From Deltaproteobacteria bacterium (lineage in GTDB: Bacteria > Desulfobacterota > RBG-13-43-22), in contig JACRBX010000116.1 in NCBI GenBank assembly GCA_016219225.1, positions 1-35,735 on the forward strand: a stretch of DNA of 35,735 nucleotides, given 5' to 3'. The position numbers were made by a program, and so were the translations under genes. The notes below the pieces were generated by a model, which was given only the letters and a program-made list of their open reading frames with translations, was not told the DNA's origin and did no database searches. This document shows positions 8,311-18,966 of the stretch, piece by piece; position 1 is the first letter of the stretch; every line of letters starts with the position of its first letter.

Positions 8311-8741
8311 ACTTTCCTCCGTTATTTCTTCTGAAAAATTTCCAGGTAACAATAAGGTGAAACCCATTTTGAAAGTCCCATCGGGTTGAAAGGTATCGTA
8401 TCTCAGGCGGCCGCTTTCTTCAAGGAGAAATGTAAACCCTATCCGGTCTGTCAGCTTTTTGTCAGGATGCGGAGGAAACATCAAAAACATGCCGGATGTC
8501 ATCAAAGTTGGTTAAGGTTCTCCCGGACCCTTTCCGGAATTCCGATTAAAAGAACCTGTTCCTTTTGGACCACCAAACCCGACCGACTTTTCTTTAACCT
8601 ATCCGTTCAGCTTTCTTGACTAATTTGATGTAAAAATCCGGATGGAAAATAGAAAATTTCCCTCTCCCCCGGGATGGAGGAAAAGGGGTTACCGGACAAG
8701 CTGTTTTTAATGGCATACTCCTTGCTTTAATACAAAAATAA

Positions 8742-8897: not shown

Positions 8898-10964
8898 ATG
8901 GAAACAAACAGCCCAAGGACCCTGGGATTTCACCTGCAGCAGGTCAAGGAAGGAAAAAGGCGGTATGAAAATGCCTTTCAGACCGTGGCCCGGATGATCC
9001 TGGAAAACAATGAATTGATCGAAAAGGTCGTGGTCAATGGGAAAAGCACCTACAACTTTAAAATCTTTCGCCTGGGCAATAAGCACGTCATTGGCATGTA
9101 TGATGAGATCAATAGTTTTGTTTCTTGTATCAAGGACGCGGCCGAAGGGGGTTCATCCCGGGAAATGGCCTTTGTCCTGGTGGGGGAGCCGGGCAATGGG
9201 AAGACCTTTTTGGTCGATACCCTCTGCAGTCTTTATCGGAATTTCTTGGCCCAGGAAGAAAACCGCCGTTATACCTTCAACTTCAAGAATCTGGAAAAAC
9301 TGGGCACCTATGGTCGAATAACCCAGATCCAGTCCCAGACCTTTGAAGATCCCATGATCCTGGCCATGAATCTCTTCCCGTCCCGAAAAGAGAACATGAC
9401 CTATCTGACCCGGGAGGCTGGATTTTCCGACCAGGAAGTGGAAAGCCTCTTTGAAACCTTCAGACCCTTGGGTGCCTGCAGCGACTACATCATGAACGAT
9501 ATCCGGAATGCCTTAAATGGCAACATCGAAGAACTTAAGGATTTTTTTGAAGTCGTCCCGGTCCCCTTAAGCGAAAGCCTGGGGACGATCACCGGGAAAT
9601 ATTCGGCCAAGGACAAGATCACTTCTTCGGCCGTAGACCTTTTAGGGGAAGAATCGATCCAAAGACTCCTTCATTTAACCGATCCGAATAACCCTTATCG
9701 TTTCGACCTTCGGAGGGGGGCCCTGGCCCGGGTAGCCGGAGGGGGTATCCATTTCAGCGATGAGATCTTCAAAAACAAAAAGGATCTGGTTCAGGTTTAT
9801 CTCGGGGTAATCCAAAACAGAAACATAGAAATAGATGGGTTCCGCTGGCCCATCGATACCCTGATCATCGCCACCAGCAACAATGCCGAGTTCAACCGCT
9901 TCCTGGCCGAAAAAGAAGAGGCCCCCATCGTGGATCGATGCCGCATCTGCTATGTGGCCCACAATACCAACTACCGTATGCAGGAACAATTGACCGCCTA
10001 TGCCGTCGGCAGTGAATCCAAGACCACCCTGACCAAGGAAAAATTACACCAGGACCCTAATTTGAATTATGCGGCCTCTATTGCGGCCGTTTTGACCCGG
10101 CTGCCCAGGACGGAGAAACTGACCCCCATAGAGATGATGAAGCTGGGGGCCGGAGAAGTGGCCGGGGAGAAAAGCATCAAGACCCTGGCCGAGGTCATTG
10201 ACACCCTTAATCATGAACCGGACATCACCAAACGATTCGGTCAAAAAGGACTGGGGCAGCGGGACCTGGGGAGGGCCCTCCAATTGTTGATGGAGACCTC
10301 CGAGACTAACGAAGGTCAATGTATGTTTGCCGAGGACATTTTTAAGGCCTTCGAGCGGGTCATCCTGGATTATGTAACCGAGGCCAATGAAAGAAAAAAA
10401 TATTTTGAAGACATCAAGACGGCCCGAGGTCTATACCGGGAACGGATCATGACCGAGATGTTCAATGCCTATATGGACGAACCCCATGCCATAAAAAAAG
10501 ATGTCATGAATTATGTCAACATGATTATCGGGATCGATGCCGAAAACCTGGGTCCTGATAAGATGTGGAAATATAAGGATCCCCAGACCGCCCAATTAAA
10601 GGCCCTCAAGATCGATGAGCGATATATCCAGAGTGTTGAGGAGAGGTTGGGTCTGAAGACCCATGAACAGCGGGAATCCTTCAGGACTTCCATAAGAAAG
10701 ATTTACGGCCAAAAGCTGTCAATCGATCCCGGTTATGATTTTATGGACAATATCGAACTGGTCAAGGCCGTCACGGATGTGAGACTCAAGTCCGATATCG
10801 CCGGGGCCGGGAGTCTCATCGGGGCCTTGGCCAACCGGACCAACGATGAGAACCAGAAGCTTTATGACCGCATGACGCAAACCATGTTGACCCAGTTGAG
10901 ATATTGTAAAACCTGCGCCCAGAAGACTATCGAGTATTTTTGTACCCGGAATGATGAAAACTGA
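8898..10964 (+). CDS. prkA: PrkA/YeaG-family serine protein kinase 1
   Basis: This 688-residue protein starts at ATG 8898, five bases after GGGAGGA; the open frame extends 19 codons upstream without support. Residues ~60-400 are the AAA+-type PrkA domain. The Walker A loop GEPGNGKT is at 96-103, a Walker B-like strand lies around GGIHFSDEIFKNK, and a sensor strand is TLIIATSNNAEFNRF. The C-terminal ~270 residues are the PrkA kinase domain. E. coli YeaG (644 residues) belongs to this family and acts with YeaH in nitrogen starvation and stress adaptation; a B. subtilis homologue influences sporulation. Here it heads the run prkA-yeaH-spoVR-prkA2 and overlaps the next gene by 14 bases. Its protein substrates are unknown. 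Confidence 0.9.
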   Translation: METNSPRTLGFHLQQVKEGKRRYENAFQTVARMILENNELIEKVVVNGKSTYNFKIFRLGNKHVIGMYDEINSFVSCIKDAAEGGSSREMAFVLVGEPGNGKTFLVDTLCSLYRNFLAQEENRRYTFNFKNLEKLGTYGRITQIQSQTFEDPMILAMNLFPSRKENMTYLTREAGFSDQEVESLFETFRPLGACSDYIMNDIRNALNGNIEELKDFFEVVPVPLSESLGTITGKYSAKDKITSSAVDLLGEESIQRLLHLTDPNNPYRFDLRRGALARVAGGGIHFSDEIFKNKKDLVQVYLGVIQNRNIEIDGFRWPIDTLIIATSNNAEFNRFLAEKEEAPIVDRCRICYVAHNTNYRMQEQLTAYAVGSESKTTLTKEKLHQDPNLNYAASIAAVLTRLPRTEKLTPIEMMKLGAGEVAGEKSIKTLAEVIDTLNHEPDITKRFGQKGLGQRDLGRALQLLMETSETNEGQCMFAEDIFKAFERVILDYVTEANERKKYFEDIKTARGLYRERIMTEMFNAYMDEPHAIKKDVMNYVNMIIGIDAENLGPDKMWKYKDPQTAQLKALKIDERYIQSVEERLGLKTHEQRESFRTSIRKIYGQKLSIDPGYDFMDNIELVKAVTDVRLKSDIAGAGSLIGALANRTNDENQKLYDRMTQTMLTQLRYCKTCAQKTIEYFCTRNDEN

Positions 10965-12306
10965 CAAAGAGTTAGAGAATCCAGAATCCAGGAGTCAGAA
11001 TCCAGAAGGGGAATCTCGCCACATCATGCCTGGCGACTTGGATCCTGAACCGCGGATTAAACAGTGGAAAGACGATTTGGGAAAAGCCTTCCGGAATACC
11101 CTTTATGAACAGGACGACCTGACCCATCTTCAAGCCCTCACCGCACCAAGGGGACACTATCTTCAAAATCTGAAATCGATTGATGAGCTGTTGGAAAGAG
11201 ACCTTCAACGGGAAAAGGACGGGTTTCCCCGGAAGATCCGGATCGGCCGGTTGATCAAGGTCGGGAAAGGGGGAAAGGAGAAAATCGTCGTGGTTCCCAC
11301 AACCGTGGAGGAGAAATTGATCCACGACCTGAAGGCGGATTCTTCAAAAACTGAAGATCAGTCCGGCGGGTCAGGGGAGGGTAATGACGGCCAGGTGATC
11401 GGAGAGGAACCGGTCCACGGAACGGAAGGCTCAGGAACCGGAGGGGCCGGCCAGGGCGAGAGCGGGGAGCATGAGATCGAGTCCAGCGCCTTTGATTTAG
11501 GGAGGATCTTAACCGAAAAATTCAACCTGCCCAATCTGACCGAAAAGGGGAAAAAACGTTCCTTAAAAAAATTTACTTATGAACTCACCGACCGGAATAA
11601 GGGGTTTGGCCAGGTCCTGGATAAAAAGGCTACCTTAAGGAAGATTATCGAGACCAACATCAACCTAAACACCATTCCGGATGTTGCCCAGATCGATCCG
11701 GCCCGTCTCCTGGTCTCTCCGCAGGACAGCGTTTACCGGATCCTTTCCAAGGAACAGGATTTTGAATCCCAGGCCATGGTTTTTTTCGTCCGGGATTATT
11801 CCGGTTCCATGTCCGGCAAACCGACCGAGGTGGTGGTGACCCAACACGTCTTGATCTATAGCTGGCTCCTGTACCAGTACGATCGACAAGTGGAGACCCG
11901 CTTTATCCTCCACGATACCGAGGCCAAGGAGGTCCCGGACTTCAACAGTTATTCCAGTTTGTCGGTGGCCGGCGGGACCAAGGTGGTCTCGGCTTATCGC
12001 CTGGTCAATGAAATCGTGGAAAGAGAAAATTTGTCCAGGGATTATAATATTTATGTCTTTCACGGCACCGATGGGGATGATTGGGACACCACCGGGAAGG
12101 AAACCATTCCGGAACTCCGCAAGATGGCCCTCTATAGCAGCCGGGTGGGTATCACCGTGGCCAATCGAGGAGGATCGGCCCTGGAGAAGACAATCAAGGA
12201 TTCTCGAGTCCTGGAAGAATATATGAAGCAATTACGGCTGGTGGTTATAGAAGAAGAGGCCGAGGAATCCCGTCTGATTGAAGGCATCAAGCAACTGATA
12301 TCTTGA
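10951..12306 (+). CDS. YeaH/DUF444 family protein with von Willebrand factor A-like domain
   Basis: This is 451 residues if started at ATG 10951, which overlaps the PrkA stop. An alternative ATG at 11026 would drop 25 residues encoded by a heptamer array and give 426 residues. Neither has a good ribosome-binding site. The DUF444 N-terminal domain covers residues ~35-130, and a Gly/Glu/Ser-rich linker runs over ~135-175. A VWA-type domain begins near residue 275 with the metal-site motif Asp282-Tyr-Ser284-Gly-Ser286, then FHGTDGDDWDTTG. In E. coli, YeaH is the partner of the YeaG kinase. Location between kinase and SpoVR genes supports a shared role, perhaps as scaffold or substrate. Confidence 0.88.
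   Translation: MMKTDKELENPESRSQNPEGESRHIMPGDLDPEPRIKQWKDDLGKAFRNTLYEQDDLTHLQALTAPRGHYLQNLKSIDELLERDLQREKDGFPRKIRIGRLIKVGKGGKEKIVVVPTTVEEKLIHDLKADSSKTEDQSGGSGEGNDGQVIGEEPVHGTEGSGTGGAGQGESGEHEIESSAFDLGRILTEKFNLPNLTEKGKKRSLKKFTYELTDRNKGFGQVLDKKATLRKIIETNINLNTIPDVAQIDPARLLVSPQDSVYRILSKEQDFESQAMVFFVRDYSGSMSGKPTEVVVTQHVLIYSWLLYQYDRQVETRFILHDTEAKEVPDFNSYSSLSVAGGTKVVSAYRLVNEIVERENLSRDYNIYVFHGTDGDDWDTTGKETIPELRKMALYSSRVGITVANRGGSALEKTIKDSRVLEEYMKQLRLVVIEEEAEESRLIEGIKQLIS
10968..11012. repeat. Heptamer array (CCAGAAT/CCAGGAG units) inside the YeaH reading frame
   Basis: The 7-base units AGAGAAT-CCAGAAT-CCAGGAG-TCAGAAT-CCAGAAG match in type the intergenic array near 29010-29038. This one encodes residues about 7-20 of the longest YeaH reading frame, so it is either translated or marks a later true start. 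Confidence 0.7.
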
Positions 12307-12324
12307 ACTCTATTTTCGAACTAA

Positions 12325-13983
12325 ATGGAACTCATCAATCAACATACCAAGCGCATCATGGAAGGCTGTAAAGACCGGGCCAAAGAGGCCGGGCTTCAGT
12401 TCCAGGACGAAACCCTGGAATATATCGTCACCAACAAAGACCTTCTGGAACTGATGCCTAAAAACATGATCCCCACCCTGTATGATTACTGGGTCCATGA
12501 GGTGGAGGTGCTCAAAGAAAAAGGGAAGTACGAGCTGTATCCTTATAATCCCTATGAAACCGTTATCAATACCCGTCCGGCCATGTCGTTTTATAATGAC
12601 AACAACCCGGACTGGTTGAATGTGATGATCTTTTATCATGTCCTGGCCCATATCGATTTTTTTCAGAACAACCTGTTTTTTAAACATACCTGGCAGGAAG
12701 ATTTTGCCGGACAAGCCCTTTCCGATAAACGCTCCATTGCCTTGCTGCGCTCGGAAAAGGGACGTTTCGTGGACTATGTCATCGAGTTCACCCGGGGGAT
12801 CGACAATCTGGTCGGCTTTTATAATGAACTCTCAGACCTTAACCGACCGGCAGGGAACAAGAGCGCCGGCAAGCTGGATTTCTACTTCGATCTGTTCTTG
12901 CAGACCATCGTCCGGGTTCCTTTCCATGAATATCTCAAGGAAGTGGACCGTTATAATGAAACCACCGGCCGGTTCGGTTCCATGGCCGAATCGATTTTTT
13001 TTTCCCAGGTGTCCAAGAAATATCCTGAGTTTGAGGCCTTATATACCACCCGGCAAAAGTCTAAGAAGCCCAAATCCAGGGACCTGATCGATTTTATTGC
13101 GGACCACTCGCCGTTTTTACAAAAGGAAGAAAACCGCTGGATGAAAACGGTCATGGAGATTGTCCGAAAGACCTCTCTCTATTTTCAACCGCAAATCAGG
13201 ACCAAGATCCTCAATGAAGGCTGGGCCAGCTATTGGCATGAAAAGTTGTTTATCAACGACGACCGGATCAAGGGCAATGAGGTGGCCTTCGCCAGGGTCA
13301 ATGCCAAGGTAACGGCCCTTCCGCGCATGGGACTCAATCCCTATGCCCTGGGCATGAGGCTGTTTTCCTATCTGGAAGGTTTAGCCGACCAAGGCCGGAT
13401 CTCCTATGCCTTCCAACGGCTCGAAAGTATCGGGGGACGCAGTGGCTTTGACCAAAAAACCGGACAAGGGCGGGATTTCGTTTCTCAGGTTCGGGAAAAC
13501 TTCAACGATTTTATGTTCGTTAATACTTTTGTGGATCAGGATTTCGTGGACACTTACAAACTTTTTGTGGCCGGAAAAAGATTGAACCCTCAAAAAGAGG
13601 TTTGGGAGTATTATATTCAGAGCCGGAAGGCTTCGGACTACAAAGCGATGCTGCTTGAATCCCTTTACCATCCACCCCATATAGTCATCGGTGAGCCGAA
13701 ATCCCAAGACCGGTCCTTATATCTTGACCATCAATTTGAAGGCAAACCCCTGGTCCGCGAATTTATCGCCCACACTCTTTTAGGGATTGAGTACCTCTGG
13801 GGGGGGCCTGTGAAGCTCGAAACCTCCGAACCGATAGAAAAACCGGAGCCCCCCTTGGCCTATAGCTACAATTTGTATGACCCGGTCCCGACCGATGGTA
13901 AATCTTCGCGTCAAGACAAGGCCCAGTTCGGCCGGGTCCTTTATACCATGGAGAATCGAAAACTCTCCAGGTCCCTTCTATGA
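12325..13983 (+). CDS. SpoVR/YcgB family protein
   Basis: This 552-residue protein matches SpoVR from end to end: an N-terminal helical part with MPTLYDYWVHE-like sequence (here MIPTLYDYWVHEVEVLKEKG), YNPYETVINTRPAMSFYNDN, the characteristic NEGWASYWHEKL at about residue 300, GLNPYALGMRLFSYLE, and a C-terminal DHQFEGKPLVREFIAHTL. SpoVR is named for a B. subtilis spore-cortex mutant, but the family is widespread in non-sporulating bacteria and accompanies yeaG and yeaH. Its biochemical activity is unknown. The ATG lies 18 bases after the YeaH stop and has no clear ribosome-binding site, so translation may depend on coupling. The downstream PrkA2 gene begins 13 bases after its stop. Confidence 0.92.
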   Translation: MELINQHTKRIMEGCKDRAKEAGLQFQDETLEYIVTNKDLLELMPKNMIPTLYDYWVHEVEVLKEKGKYELYPYNPYETVINTRPAMSFYNDNNPDWLNVMIFYHVLAHIDFFQNNLFFKHTWQEDFAGQALSDKRSIALLRSEKGRFVDYVIEFTRGIDNLVGFYNELSDLNRPAGNKSAGKLDFYFDLFLQTIVRVPFHEYLKEVDRYNETTGRFGSMAESIFFSQVSKKYPEFEALYTTRQKSKKPKSRDLIDFIADHSPFLQKEENRWMKTVMEIVRKTSLYFQPQIRTKILNEGWASYWHEKLFINDDRIKGNEVAFARVNAKVTALPRMGLNPYALGMRLFSYLEGLADQGRISYAFQRLESIGGRSGFDQKTGQGRDFVSQVRENFNDFMFVNTFVDQDFVDTYKLFVAGKRLNPQKEVWEYYIQSRKASDYKAMLLESLYHPPHIVIGEPKSQDRSLYLDHQFEGKPLVREFIAHTLLGIEYLWGGPVKLETSEPIEKPEPPLAYSYNLYDPVPTDGKSSRQDKAQFGRVLYTMENRKLSRSLL

Positions 13984-13996
13984 GGAAAGGCGGCCC

Positions 13997-16291
13997 ATGG
14001 AATCCGTTGAGCAAGTAATATCCACCCTCTGTCAAAAAATCAAGGAACGGGAAAACCGCCTTCCCATGAATTACCAGGAATTCATGACGTTGGCCGGGGA
14101 ACAACCGACCCTGGTCTTTCGCAATATTTTTCAGAGGCTCCAGGACATGATCAAAAGTCATTTAGGCGAAGGCGTAAATGAATATCCGGATGATCCGGAA
14201 TCCATCAACTATGTCTATTATGACTGCAACAGCCTTTTTGTCGACGGGGCGGACCACCCTTTTTTCGCCGACCGTCTCTTCGCCAATCGGCTTATCAATC
14301 ATATCAATGCCTTTCAACATGGAAGGCAGCAAAACCGGATCTATATTTTTGAAGGTCCTCATGGATGCGGTAAGAGCACCTTCCTGAACAACCTGCTGAT
14401 GAAGTTTGAGCACTACAGCAAAACCGCCGCCGGAAGCACCTACGAAACCGTCTGGCGCCTGGACAAAAAGGAACTGGGCGTGCTTTTCGAAAATGAGGCC
14501 CATGTCCTTTTGGGCCAGTTACGGACCCTGGCTGAGCATGCCTCCCTGACCCCCCGGCCGGCCCAGCGGGATCAAATTCTGGGCCTGCCTGCCAAGGAAT
14601 ACCTGGAGGTCCCCTGCCCCAGTCATGACAACCCTATCCTTTTAATCCCTAAAGGGTATCGCCGGGAGGTCTTTGACCATCTCATCCAGGATGAAGGGTT
14701 CAAACAAAAGTTATTTACCGAAAAGCAGTATGAATGGGTGTTCAGAGATAATCCCTGCACGATCTGCCTGTCCCTGTATCAGACCCTTTTGGACCTTTTG
14801 GATTCTCCGGCCAAGGTCTTTGATATGGTCTTTGCCCGACGCTACGAATTTAACCGGCGTCTGGGCCAGGGGATCAGTGTCTTTAATCCCGGCGACCGGA
14901 TTACCAAAGTCGCTGTCATCACTAATGAGATGCTGCAAAGTCAATTGAATGCCCTGGTCAAAGACAGCAACAGGGTTAAATATCTTTTTTCCCGATATGC
15001 CATCACCAACAATGGCATCTTCGCCCTGATGGATGTAAAAGATCACAACAAGGAACGCTTTGCCAATCTTCACGGCATCATCAGTGAAGGGGTCCATAAG
15101 GTGGAGGAAGAGATCGAAGAGAATGTCAATTCCCTGTTTCTGGCCCTGATGAATCCGGAAGATCTGGAAAATATAGGCGACACCCATTCTTTTATCGACC
15201 GTATCACCTTTATCAAGATCCCCTATGTCCTCGATTACAATACCGAGGTCAAGATCCACAGGAACGTCTTTGGTGATCAACTCGAGAGCCGTTTTCTTCC
15301 CCGGGTGCTCCAAAATTTCTCCAAGGTGGTTATATCCTCCCGGATGAAGGAAAAATCCGAGGGGTTAGAGGAGTGGATCAAAGAGCCGGATCGCTACCGG
15401 CTGTATTGTGACCGAAACCTCCAGTTGTTGAAAATGGATATCTATGCCGGCTTGATCCCCCCCTGGCTTTCTCAGGAGGACCGGAAAAGATTTACGGCCA
15501 AGCGAAGACAGTCTATCATCGGCGAGTCGGAGACCGAGGGAACCAAAGGGTTTTCAGGAAGAGACTCCATCATGATTTTAAATGAGTTTTATTCCACCTA
15601 CGCCAAGAATGGCAAATTAATCACCATGGCCATGGTTTATCATTTCTTCCGCGAAAATCGCCGGGACCTGCTGGCTTCGATCCCTGAAGGATTTTTGGAT
15701 TCCCTGGTAAGTTCTTATAACTATGCGGTCCTTCAGGAAGTCAAGGAATCGCTTTATTACTATAATGAAGAACGGATTTCAAGAGATATTCAGAATTACC
15801 TTTTTGCCACCAATTTTGAACCCGGCAGTGCCGAAAGATGTATCTATACCGGGGAAACCCTGGAAATCGGAGAGGAGTTTTTTGAAGGCCTTGAACGCCG
15901 CATCCTCGGTGCGGGGCTTAAAGATTCCCAAAGGCAGGCCTTCCGAAAAGAGGTCCAGAATCAATATGCCTCCAAGACCCTGACCCAGGAAATGCTCCTG
16001 GAGGGAAAGCAAATTACCGAGACTTCGGTGTATCACTCCCTGCGTGAACGGTATGTCCACAACCTGAAGGAAAAGGTGATGGACCCTTTTCTGAAAAATG
16101 AAAATTTCAGGAGGGCCATCAAGGATTTTGCCACAGATAGTTTCAGAACCTACGATAAAAGGATCCGGGAGGAGATCAACTTCCTCATGCAGAACCTCAT
16201 GGGAAAATTCGGCTACTCCTCCCAGGGGGCCAAGGAGGCCTGTATCTATGTGATCGATAACGACCTGACCACCACTTTTGCCTCATCATGA
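13997..16291 (+). CDS. PrkA-family serine protein kinase 2 (divergent paralogue)
   Basis: This 764-residue protein starts at ATG 13997, with GAGGAAAGG ending six bases upstream. The P-loop GPHGCGKST is at residues 120-128. The length and order resemble the first kinase (an AAA+-type domain, then a long helical C-terminal region), but sequence identity by eye is low. It has an unusual insertion after the P-loop, including a NPCTICLSLYQ stretch with two Cys, and the glutamate-rich motif KVEEEIEENVNSLFLAL. The sensor-like strand reads YAITNNGIFALMDV. By family it would be a cytoplasmic Ser/Thr kinase or regulatory ATPase. As the fourth gene of the YeaG-YeaH-SpoVR set it could form a hetero-complex with kinase 1 or regulate it. 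Confidence 0.78.
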   Translation: MESVEQVISTLCQKIKERENRLPMNYQEFMTLAGEQPTLVFRNIFQRLQDMIKSHLGEGVNEYPDDPESINYVYYDCNSLFVDGADHPFFADRLFANRLINHINAFQHGRQQNRIYIFEGPHGCGKSTFLNNLLMKFEHYSKTAAGSTYETVWRLDKKELGVLFENEAHVLLGQLRTLAEHASLTPRPAQRDQILGLPAKEYLEVPCPSHDNPILLIPKGYRREVFDHLIQDEGFKQKLFTEKQYEWVFRDNPCTICLSLYQTLLDLLDSPAKVFDMVFARRYEFNRRLGQGISVFNPGDRITKVAVITNEMLQSQLNALVKDSNRVKYLFSRYAITNNGIFALMDVKDHNKERFANLHGIISEGVHKVEEEIEENVNSLFLALMNPEDLENIGDTHSFIDRITFIKIPYVLDYNTEVKIHRNVFGDQLESRFLPRVLQNFSKVVISSRMKEKSEGLEEWIKEPDRYRLYCDRNLQLLKMDIYAGLIPPWLSQEDRKRFTAKRRQSIIGESETEGTKGFSGRDSIMILNEFYSTYAKNGKLITMAMVYHFFRENRRDLLASIPEGFLDSLVSSYNYAVLQEVKESLYYYNEERISRDIQNYLFATNFEPGSAERCIYTGETLEIGEEFFEGLERRILGAGLKDSQRQAFRKEVQNQYASKTLTQEMLLEGKQITETSVYHSLRERYVHNLKEKVMDPFLKNENFRRAIKDFATDSFRTYDKRIREEINFLMQNLMGKFGYSSQGAKEACIYVIDNDLTTTFASS

Positions 16292-16293
16292 AA

Positions 16294-16497
16294 GGGATCG
16301 GGGTTCGGGGGTCAGGGATCGGGGAAAAGTTAAACCTTTGTCCTGGAGGGCGTCACGAAACATGAAAATTTTTTCAGGTGATGGGTGATGGGCTATGGGC
16401 TATGGGCAAGGTACAGGGTTGAAGGTTTTTACACCTGTAACTTGCAACTTTCTCTTCGACTGCCCCCCGACCCCCGATCCCTGATCCCTGATCCCTA
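16294..16497. repeat. Composite intergenic repeat A (heptamers, dyad copy 2, heptamers)
   Basis: In order: heptamers GGATCGG/GGTTCGG/GGTCAGG (16294-16324), dyad element copy 2 in minus orientation (16330-16369), TGATGGG/CTATGGG units (16377-16408), a spacer like GTACAGGGTTGAAGGTTTTT, CTTGCAA-type units (16437-16452), and CCCCCGA/TCCCTGA units up to the response-regulator stop. The same order of modules recurs at 22318-22490, so the composite is a larger repeated unit. Confidence 0.75.
16330..16369 (-). repeat. Dyad element copy 2
   Basis: It starts TTAAACCTTTGTCCTGGAGG and ends CACGAAACATGAAAAT. It is the reverse orientation of copy 1 and has one of the more diverged centres. Confidence 0.7.
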
Positions 16498-16944
16498 AAA
16501 GGCGGCGATACTTTCGGCCAGGGCCGGATCGCGCAAAATCTTCTTGGCGAATTTTATGTATTTGGCTACAATGGCTCGGACGGCTAATTGCAGGGCATAG
16601 GGGCGAATGGGTTTTTCAATGAGATAAGTAATGTCCGAGGCGATGCACATATTGACCACGTCATCACTGGCATTTCCGGTGACAATGATCGTATCCTGGT
16701 AGGCCAGGGGGAACTTGTCGATGACGGCCTCCAGAAAACCGAATCCGGTTTCCTCACCCATGAAGACGTCTAAAACGAAGATGGCTACGGAATTTTTCTG
16801 GCTTCGGCAAAAGGCGACGGCTTCTCCGGACTGGGTAAAGGTGAGCACCTGTCCCCAGGTATAAAATCTGGTGATGATCTTGGCCACGACCTCGCAAACG
16901 GCCGGATCGTCATCGACGATAATTACATCCAGGCTGTCAGACAT
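16495..16944 (-). CDS. Single-domain response regulator (CheY-like)
   Basis: This 149-residue receiver domain has no output domain. The acidic pocket is Asp11-Asp12-Asp13, the phosphoacceptor is Asp59 (FVLDVFMG), the switch Thr is Thr89 (IIVTGNA) and the conserved Lys is Lys111 (IEKPI). After the receiver, only a helical tail of about 30 residues remains. It starts with a good GGGAGG site. It is transcribed divergently from the receiver-GAF-histidine kinase, 231 bases away, and its 3' end faces the PrkA2 gene. It probably acts as a phosphate shuttle or by protein-protein contact, either with that kinase or with the PrkA module; the partner is inferred only from neighbourhood. Confidence 0.88.
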   Translation of the reverse strand: MSDSLDVIIVDDDPAVCEVVAKIITRFYTWGQVLTFTQSGEAVAFCRSQKNSVAIFVLDVFMGEETGFGFLEAVIDKFPLAYQDTIIVTGNASDDVVNMCIASDITYLIEKPIRPYALQLAVRAIVAKYIKFAKKILRDPALAESIAAF

Positions 16945-17175: not shown

Positions 17176-18966
17176 ATGTCCCCTGACGAAAAGATACTCA
17201 TCGTAGATGACGACCCTGATATCCGGCGGCTCATCCAGAAAGCCCTGAGTAAGGCCGGATATACCTGTCTGGAGGCCGAAGACGGTCGTGGGCTTTTTCA
17301 TCTGATGGCCGACCATCGCCTGGCCCTAATCCTTTTGGACATCAAACTTCCCTATCAGGATGGGTTGACTCTTTTGCCCAAGATCCTGGAGCAGGACCAG
17401 GAAGTCTGCGTGGTTATGCTGACGGGTGTAGTCGATGTGAAAACCGCCATATTGGCTATCCGGAAAGGGGCCTTTGATTATATTCCCAAGCCTTTCCCGT
17501 TGGAGGAACTGCAATTGGTGGTCCGCCGGGCTCTGGAGAAAAGGCGTTTGGAAATTGAAAACAAACTCTATCATCAGGCCATCGAGAGAAAAAATCTCCG
17601 CCTGGAGATTTTACACGGTCTCTCTGTCAAGATAGCCTTTTCCCTGTTAGAGACCGTAGAACTTGAAGAAATCCTCAGGACTATATTGGTCGGAATCACA
17701 GCCGGCGAAGGACTGGGGTTAAATCGAGCCTTTTTGGCCTTATTCAATGATACCCAAACCAGGTTGGAAGGCAAGATTGCCATAGGCCCGGGCAGTCCCG
17801 AAGAAGCGGGGCGGATCTGGGCCTCTTTACAAGAGCGCAAAACCAGTCTGTCCCAGGCCATCGCCGAATACGGTCGGGTTTGCCGGATTGAAAACACCCG
17901 GGTCAACCAAATCGCCCAGGCGATTTCGCTTCCCTCCACCGATTATGATAACATCCTGATCCGGGCCGCTCAAGAAAAACGATCTTTTAATGTCGTAGAC
18001 GGCCAGATCGATAAGCAGCCTGTTAAAAAGGATATCATTCATCTTTTAGGGTCCGAGTCCTTTGCCGTTGTTCCCCTTTGTTCGCCGGACCGGGTCCAAG
18101 GGATAATTGTGGCCGACAACTATATTACCCGCCAACCGATCACGGCCGAAGACATTACGGCTATGGAGCTGTTTGCCAATCAGGCCAGCCTGGCCATAGA
18201 AAAAAGCCGGCTCTATTCCGAACTGGCCCAAAAAGTGTCCAACCTGGAAGCCGTCAACAAGGAATTGGAAGAAAACCGGGACCTGCTGATACGGGTCGAA
18301 CGATTGTCAGCCCTGGGGGAAATGGCGGCTCAAATCGCCCATGAAATGAAGAACCCCCTGGCCTCCATCGGCGGGGTGGCCCGATTTATCCAAAGACACA
18401 CCCAGGAAGAGAAATATAAAAATCATTTGGAGACTATCGTCAAGGAAACCTTGCGGCTGGAGCAGATCCTGTTCCAGATTTTTGACTTTATCCAATGTCC
18501 GTCGATAACCCTAAAAAAAATAAATTTAAACCACCTTCTCCATTCCTGTCTTCAGACCCTCCATTCCCAAATGGAAAAATCCAATATAACCCTGGCGACC
18601 GACTTTTCTCCGGATCTGCCTGAAATGGATCTGGATGAAGACCGGATAAAGGAGGCCGTCCTGAATATCTGCCGCAATGCCATCGACGCCATGCCTTCGG
18701 GCGGTCGGTTGCGTGTCTGCACCGGGGTGGACCGGAAAGAAGTCCGGGTTGAAATAAGCGATACCGGCGTGGGGATGGTTCCGGAACATTTAGAAAAGGC
18801 CCGGCAACCTTTTTTTACCACAAAAACCTATGGGATCGGTTTGGGGCTGACCCTGGCGGAAAAAATTGTTAATATGCACCAGGGCAGGATCACTCTTTCC
18901 GGTAAATTGGGATCCGGGGTCTGTGTAACGATTTTCCTGCTTTTGTCGCCGGGATCAATCGATTAG
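17176..18966 (+). CDS. Hybrid sensor histidine kinase: N-terminal receiver, GAF, HisKA, HATPase
   Basis: This is a 596-residue soluble kinase with no membrane segment. Residues 5-120 are a receiver: Asp11-13, phosphoacceptor Asp55, Thr83, Lys105. Residues ~145-345 are a GAF domain (AFLALFND; AVVPLCSPDRVQGIIVADN; FANQASLAIEKS). A short coiled coil runs ~347-375. The HisKA H-box contains His389 (AHEMKNPLASIGG) and is followed by a HATPase domain with N box NICRNAIDAM, G1 DTGVGM and G2 GIGLGLTLAEK. A kinase with an N-terminal receiver suggests it accepts phosphate from an upstream kinase, or that the receiver modulates it. Its output partner may be the divergent single-domain regulator. The last 12 bases overlap the converging DUF2284 gene. 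Confidence 0.9.
   Translation: MSPDEKILIVDDDPDIRRLIQKALSKAGYTCLEAEDGRGLFHLMADHRLALILLDIKLPYQDGLTLLPKILEQDQEVCVVMLTGVVDVKTAILAIRKGAFDYIPKPFPLEELQLVVRRALEKRRLEIENKLYHQAIERKNLRLEILHGLSVKIAFSLLETVELEEILRTILVGITAGEGLGLNRAFLALFNDTQTRLEGKIAIGPGSPEEAGRIWASLQERKTSLSQAIAEYGRVCRIENTRVNQIAQAISLPSTDYDNILIRAAQEKRSFNVVDGQIDKQPVKKDIIHLLGSESFAVVPLCSPDRVQGIIVADNYITRQPITAEDITAMELFANQASLAIEKSRLYSELAQKVSNLEAVNKELEENRDLLIRVERLSALGEMAAQIAHEMKNPLASIGGVARFIQRHTQEEKYKNHLETIVKETLRLEQILFQIFDFIQCPSITLKKINLNHLLHSCLQTLHSQMEKSNITLATDFSPDLPEMDLDEDRIKEAVLNICRNAIDAMPSGGRLRVCTGVDRKEVRVEISDTGVGMVPEHLEKARQPFFTTKTYGIGLGLTLAEKIVNMHQGRITLSGKLGSGVCVTIFLLLSPGSID

Follow-up and report, generated by a model that had tools for sequence, protein, structure and literature searches.

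A conserved PrkA-YeaH-SpoVR-PrkA operon with two deeply diverged PrkA paralogs, probably a two-motor form of a stress-survival machine

Two PrkA-family AAA+ proteins, a YeaH protein and a SpoVR protein are encoded by four genes that constitute one operon, passed on together and in some cases duplicated as a whole, and the second PrkA (PrkA2) is a built-in partner and not a stray gene. PrkA2 is an ancient partner with an altered ATP-splitting site, and the quartet is therefore probably a two-motor version of the widespread, poorly understood PrkA-YeaH-SpoVR stress-survival machine. Conservation of PrkA, YeaH and SpoVR reaches from E. coli and Bacillus as far as haloarchaea, with starvation induction in several of these, and their molecular function is poorly understood. 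The division of the PrkA role over two proteins with fixed active-site changes shows which features are separable (ATP hydrolysis, the C-terminal CxxC and the CxxH...CxxC motif), and the quartet suggests specific mutants and provides four defined proteins to reconstitute.

We tentatively favour, at a little under an even chance, a stress-induced two-motor AAA+/VWA machine in which a hydrolysing PrkA1 and a hydrolysis-weakened PrkA2 act on SpoVR through YeaH. Upon starvation or stress, sigma-54 would transcribe the operon; PrkA1 would hydrolyse ATP and PrkA2 would mainly bind it, and the two would form an asymmetric AAA+ assembly, by analogy with BchI/BchD of magnesium chelatase. YeaH, via its MIDAS, would couple this assembly to SpoVR, and ATP-driven movement would remodel or activate SpoVR, the probable metal-dependent effector, which may help cells through growth arrest. 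The roles of PrkA1 and PrkA2 and their mixed ring are what we infer; what is observed is the anatomy, the conservation and the enrichment of the promoter motif. A bolder form of the model appears somewhat unlikely: active PrkA1 and hydrolysis-weakened PrkA2 would form obligate hetero-AAA+ mixed rings that, via YeaH, metal-load or activate SpoVR as an unrecognised metalloenzyme, and the trio with a single PrkA, as in E. coli and Bacillus, would be a simplified form of this machine.

Organization and inheritance of the quartet

The source genome is 5.9 Mb, and the window (the whole stretch of 35,735 nucleotides analysed) is its contig C116. A run of four genes on one strand at 8898-16291, proposed in the initial annotation, is borne out by the open reading frames and Pfam matches. 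The first gene, prkA1 (8898..10964, +), encodes a 688 aa type-II PrkA AAA+ protein with Walker B IHFSDE, catalytic E289 and a C-terminal YCxxCA, without CPxH...CxxC. It is followed by yeaH (10951..12306, +; 451 aa, DUF444), with a VWA-type MIDAS composed of D282, S284, S286, T343 and D374, by spoVR (12325..13983, +; 552 aa, SpoVR family), with the invariant H105xxxH109 and E298, and by prkA2 (13997..16291, +; 764 aa), in which the Walker B glutamate is replaced by aspartate (D346), CPSH...CTIC is kept and the C-terminal CxxC is gone. The P-loop GPHGCGKST reported for PrkA2 is present as its Walker A (residues 120-128), and the spacing was also read exactly: prkA1 and yeaH overlap by 14 bases, followed by gaps of 18 bases (yeaH-spoVR) and 13 bases (spoVR-prkA2). 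A GGAGG ribosome-binding site is immediately 5' of prkA1. All four proteins exceed curated Pfam cut-offs, PrkA1 with both PF08298 (5.6e-16) and PF06798 (1.3e-36), PrkA2 with both PF06798 (3.5e-54) and PF08298 (1.5e-9), YeaH with PF04285 (and NCBIfam NF003712 at 676 bits, cut-off 421), and SpoVR with PF04293 (2.2e-57) and PF24755 (SpoVR_C). The source genome contains one copy of SpoVR.

A terminator-like hairpin followed by a nine-T run lies within spoVR (12970-13003, + strand). Directly after the operon, reading by eye identifies a response-regulator-like gene (16495-16944, -), and further on a receiver/GAF/histidine-kinase-like gene (17176-18966, +). Response-regulator/histidine-kinase genes related to the latter are located near 15 of 87 sets at varying positions, and no flanking gene is conserved beside the quartet across these 87 loci as a fifth component.

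A scan of 84,980 species genomes identified 174 PrkA2 relatives, and the best 79 of these 174 loci were examined. When these were taken together with same-phylum genomes, leaving out the window itself, the order prkA1-yeaH-spoVR-prkA2 was observed in all 63 other sets that are complete and single-copy, far above chance, with median intergenic gaps of 29, 41 and 13 bases. Partial loci are mostly interrupted by contig ends, and tandem copies of the whole set are present at L046 and L069, and probably at L025. Correlation among the four proteins' distance matrices reaches r 0.80-0.84 (permutations ≤0.18), which fits their joint inheritance.

Some loci have unusual arrangements. At L036 (Desulfonema magnum, G207:C1:3375657-3402000) prkA1 and spoVR are ~17 kb apart and spoVR and prkA2 4.1 kb apart, with all genes in the same direction. 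At L116/L117 (G124 C1) PrkA2 is split: the body, next to spoVR, extends to the end of the contig, and the final ~82 residues lie 1.29 Mb off, 12 kb from prkA1-yeaH, reflecting either rearrangement or misassembly.

The quartet occurs through many sulfate- and metal-reducing bacteria, and its distribution is patchy. The examined loci are mostly titled Desulfobacterales, Geobacterales and other 'Deltaproteobacteria', 21 loosely titled MAGs are Myxococcota by NCBI ranks, and there are also two Aminicenantes and one bacterium UASB270. PrkA2 was not found in the other searched genomes of the source's genus and family (G001-G004), and the scan found no PrkA2 relatives in viral contigs.

A survey of co-occurrence, suggested at the outset as a check, was run on 197 genomes of the phylum. 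PrkA2 is present in 11 of the 197, type-II PrkA1 in the identical 11 and SpoVR in 11/11, such that PrkA2 without SpoVR and PrkA1 occurs in 0/11; canonical trios are in 11 different genomes, and both types are together in 0/197. The strict 11/11 pairing, with PrkA1-only genomes absent from these 197, suggests mutual need and argues against a division of labour in which two homomeric AAA+ machines share YeaH and SpoVR and serve different clients or conditions. We regard such a division as distinctly unlikely, although complementary cysteine motifs and the deep divergence of PrkA1 and PrkA2 (see below) would suit it. One true orphan PrkA2 was found outside these 197 genomes (L028, 8908-11289, in G206); it is an intact gene on a complete 5.57 Mb MAG chromosome from which PrkA1 and SpoVR are absent, and it shows either that PrkA2 is able to persist alone or that it can be left as a remnant.

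Two unequal PrkA proteins

In a phylogenetic tree PrkA1 and PrkA2 each form a well-supported clade outside canonical PrkA, on long branches. The PrkA1 and PrkA2 profiles each match canonical PrkA (5e-51 and 2e-48 respectively), and direct profile comparison of PrkA1 with PrkA2 by hhalign gives no significant similarity. Recent tandem duplication as their origin is thus ruled out, and by sequence comparison the two are deep, ancient paralogs. PrkA2 is therefore not a divergent kinase beside a normal PrkA1, as initially described, since canonical PrkA is very distant from both; the broader proposal of two unequal PrkA-family AAA+ proteins in a co-inherited four-part unit is upheld.

The Walker-B glutamate is Glu in 20/20 canonical PrkAs and 67/67 PrkA1 proteins, and Asp in 91/91 PrkA2 proteins, which have Met at the preceding Walker-B Asp position. 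The MAFFT register at the PrkA1 Walker B is off by one, and the gapless hhalign register was used for this check. The Walker A Lys, sensor-1 Asn, Arg finger and sensor-2 Arg are kept in the canonical, PrkA1 and PrkA2 clades, and apart from the Glu-to-Asp change the PrkA2 ATP site is, as judged from its residues, otherwise complete; with Asp at this position it may still hydrolyse ATP.

In most canonical PrkAs there are two cysteine motifs: CPxx...CPxC, and YCxxC at the C terminus. PrkA1 retains only the C-terminal CxxC and PrkA2 only the CxxH...CxxC, in which C207/H210...C254/C257 are invariant and constitute a plausible candidate zinc site. A 'two-Cys insertion' had been considered peculiar to PrkA2, but the motif is present in most canonical PrkAs and is thus an ancestral feature that PrkA1 has lost.

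The asymmetry extends to evolutionary rate, with PrkA2 evolving faster (mean identity 0.62 versus 0.80) and having its own inserts. Together with the orphan at L028 and the lack of significant direct profile similarity, which leaves shared interfaces not evident, these features are compatible with PrkA2 being a separate regulator, forming its own assembly with little ATP turnover and modulating PrkA1 or YeaH outside a common ring. The retention in both PrkAs of the Arg finger, sensors and Walker A, as expected for ring subunits, is at odds with such a regulator, and we consider it a rather improbable reading.

A third, very divergent prkA-yeaH-spoVR-prkA operon is present at L018 (7031-14645) and L115 (947-8580), in two genomes of the same genus (G024 and G181). 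At the Walker-B Glu site its last PrkA (863 and 832 aa) carries Asp and its first PrkA carries Glu. By hhalign the last PrkA matches PrkA2 (1e-20) and not PrkA1, and it also shares the C-terminal YSxQGA. A tree grouping of this protein with PrkA1 (88/83, with a long-branch warning) is not trusted because profile comparison places it with PrkA2 and the shared motifs agree. The PrkA2 role, from this resemblance, probably predates the operon type described here.

The predicted structure of PrkA2 (pLDDT 81) has as its best PDB match BchI of magnesium chelatase (E 2.5e-3, TM-score about 0.1-0.2), followed by MCM and LonC, all of them weak; that of PrkA1 (pLDDT 49) is unusable. PrkA1 has an AAA_5/dynein-related Pfam match (3.2e-6), with AAA_lid_7 sub-threshold. 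The LonC match, together with casein cleavage reported for B. subtilis PrkA (cited in PMC13001217), raises the notion of a Lon-like protease machine that degrades regulators. We judge this extremely unlikely, as the protease activity of B. anthracis PrkA was gone on further purification and that protein is without protease active-site residues (PMC13001217), and the Pfam matches of the quartet include no protease domain.

The 'kinase' label that the initial annotation carried is likewise doubtful, because the kinase and protease activities of B. anthracis PrkA were negligible in purified form, whereas the protein did oligomerise with ATP (PMC13001217). A cascade in which both PrkAs are serine kinases, one phosphorylating the other PrkA, YeaH or SpoVR, would accord with the historical annotation and with the failure of E. 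coli YeaG K426A, altered in the supposed kinase domain, to complement (PMC4664914). With the negligible activity of the B. anthracis protein, whose C-terminal part is without a P-loop (PMC13001217), it is very unlikely.

Partner proteins, promoter and phage-borne relatives

The YeaH MIDAS residues (DxSxS...T...D) are complete in 36/36 sequences of all types, phages included, which fits the favoured AAA+/VWA machine. In SpoVR, H105, H109 and E298 are invariant in 35/35 sequences (HxxxH...NEGWA), and the HxxxH...E is a possible metal site. That SpoVR has enzymatic activity is conjecture, because its HxxxH does not contain the catalytic Glu present in HExxH zincins.

A sigma-54 type -24/-12 promoter element, TGGCATACTCCTTGCT, is located at 8711..8726 (+), 187 bases before PrkA1, and matches TGGCAC-N5-TTGCW at 10/11. 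The 400 bases upstream of PrkA1 genes were searched for this motif with a threshold score of >=10, and shuffles were also run. Elements scoring at least 10 are upstream of 12/66 PrkA1 genes and 3/527 control ORFs taken from these loci (p 5e-10 by Fisher's test, a value that is not calibrated because the loci, and hence the sequences, are related); 45/66 relatives have no good sigma-54 match within the 400 bases searched. In R. etli, prkA depends on RpoN1 and is the first gene of a prkA-VWA-spoVR operon that was demonstrated by RT-PCR (PMC3188799). In E. coli, NtrC binds at the yeaGH promoter, yeaG and yeaH mutants have a common phenotype in recovery from nitrogen starvation, and AAA+ residues are required (PMC4664914). 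The motif enrichment and the R. etli and E. coli data together tie the set to starvation or stress.

Relatives of these genes are also carried by phages. The 595-kb uncultured phage LR756511.1 (L104, 3530-9011, -) encodes a complete PrkA-YeaH-SpoVR trio with the MIDAS and HxxxH...E intact, and three further phages of 634-642 kb have PrkA and SpoVR relatives. The phiYS40-group Thermus phages, including YS40_Isch (L129, 695-6821, +), have the arrangement yeaH-spoVR-(616 aa gene)-prkA; the 616-aa gene was considered as a second PrkA and ruled out, having no match. A PrkA relative is present in 11 Thermus phage records, and one in Enterobacter phage LAU1 is annotated as YeaG.

Comparison with known systems

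In MoxR-VWA systems, magnesium chelatase BchI/BchD, CbbQ/CbbO and NorQ/NorD, an AAA+ protein and a MIDAS-containing VWA protein act on a client, and BchI/BchD has one active and one degenerate AAA+ subunit. The quartet has the same combination of AAA+ and MIDAS VWA proteins, and an unequal AAA+ pair as in BchI/BchD. It differs in that the VWA is a separate protein, the PrkA2-BchI fold match is weak and the client role of SpoVR is one that we infer; moreover, the quartet PrkAs have no Pfam match to the MoxR family (AAA_3/MoxR lid) or to chelatase families. The MoxR-VWA-like architecture suggested initially is thus supported by the intact YeaH MIDAS, the PrkA1 AAA_5 match and the weak PrkA2-BchI fold similarity, as a likeness in how the systems may work only.

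Among solved structures the PrkA-family protein 9xip (692 aa, 'Serine protein kinase') matches both PrkA1 (1.4e-12) and PrkA2 (1e-16). In its aligned sequence the Walker-B Glu and the two cysteine motifs are all present, whereas PrkA1 and PrkA2 keep one cysteine motif each.

The PrkA-YeaH-SpoVR trio was recognised by 2007 at the latest (PMC2375023). The canonical trio (E. coli YeaG/YeaH and YcgB, the R. etli prkA operon, B. subtilis PrkA) is composed of the same three families in the order prkA-yeaH-spoVR, and shares with the quartet a sigma-54/stress link, the YeaH MIDAS and the SpoVR HxxxH...E. It has one PrkA, however, whereas the quartet has two deep-paralog PrkAs, neither of them canonical, at its two ends. 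The quartet YeaH belongs to a separate NCBIfam model (NF003712), and its SpoVR scores ~200 bits with PF04293, compared to 390-485 for full-length canonical SpoVR.

The four-part set had been thought to be undescribed, but it is not new in general, because a signature cluster of two PrkA genes, DUF444 and SpoVR was reported in all haloarchaea in 2011 (PMC3102087). That cluster contains the same four components, with two PrkA genes always present; the haloarchaeal PrkA genes are adjacent, whereas the quartet PrkAs flank yeaH-spoVR, the PrkAs being compared by published description only. Haloferax YeaH is below the NF003712 cut-off, which the quartet YeaH exceeds. The literature searched yielded no paper on this bacterial quartet, or on the PrkA asymmetry. 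The quartet differs from the haloarchaeal cluster in its gene order and its YeaH model.
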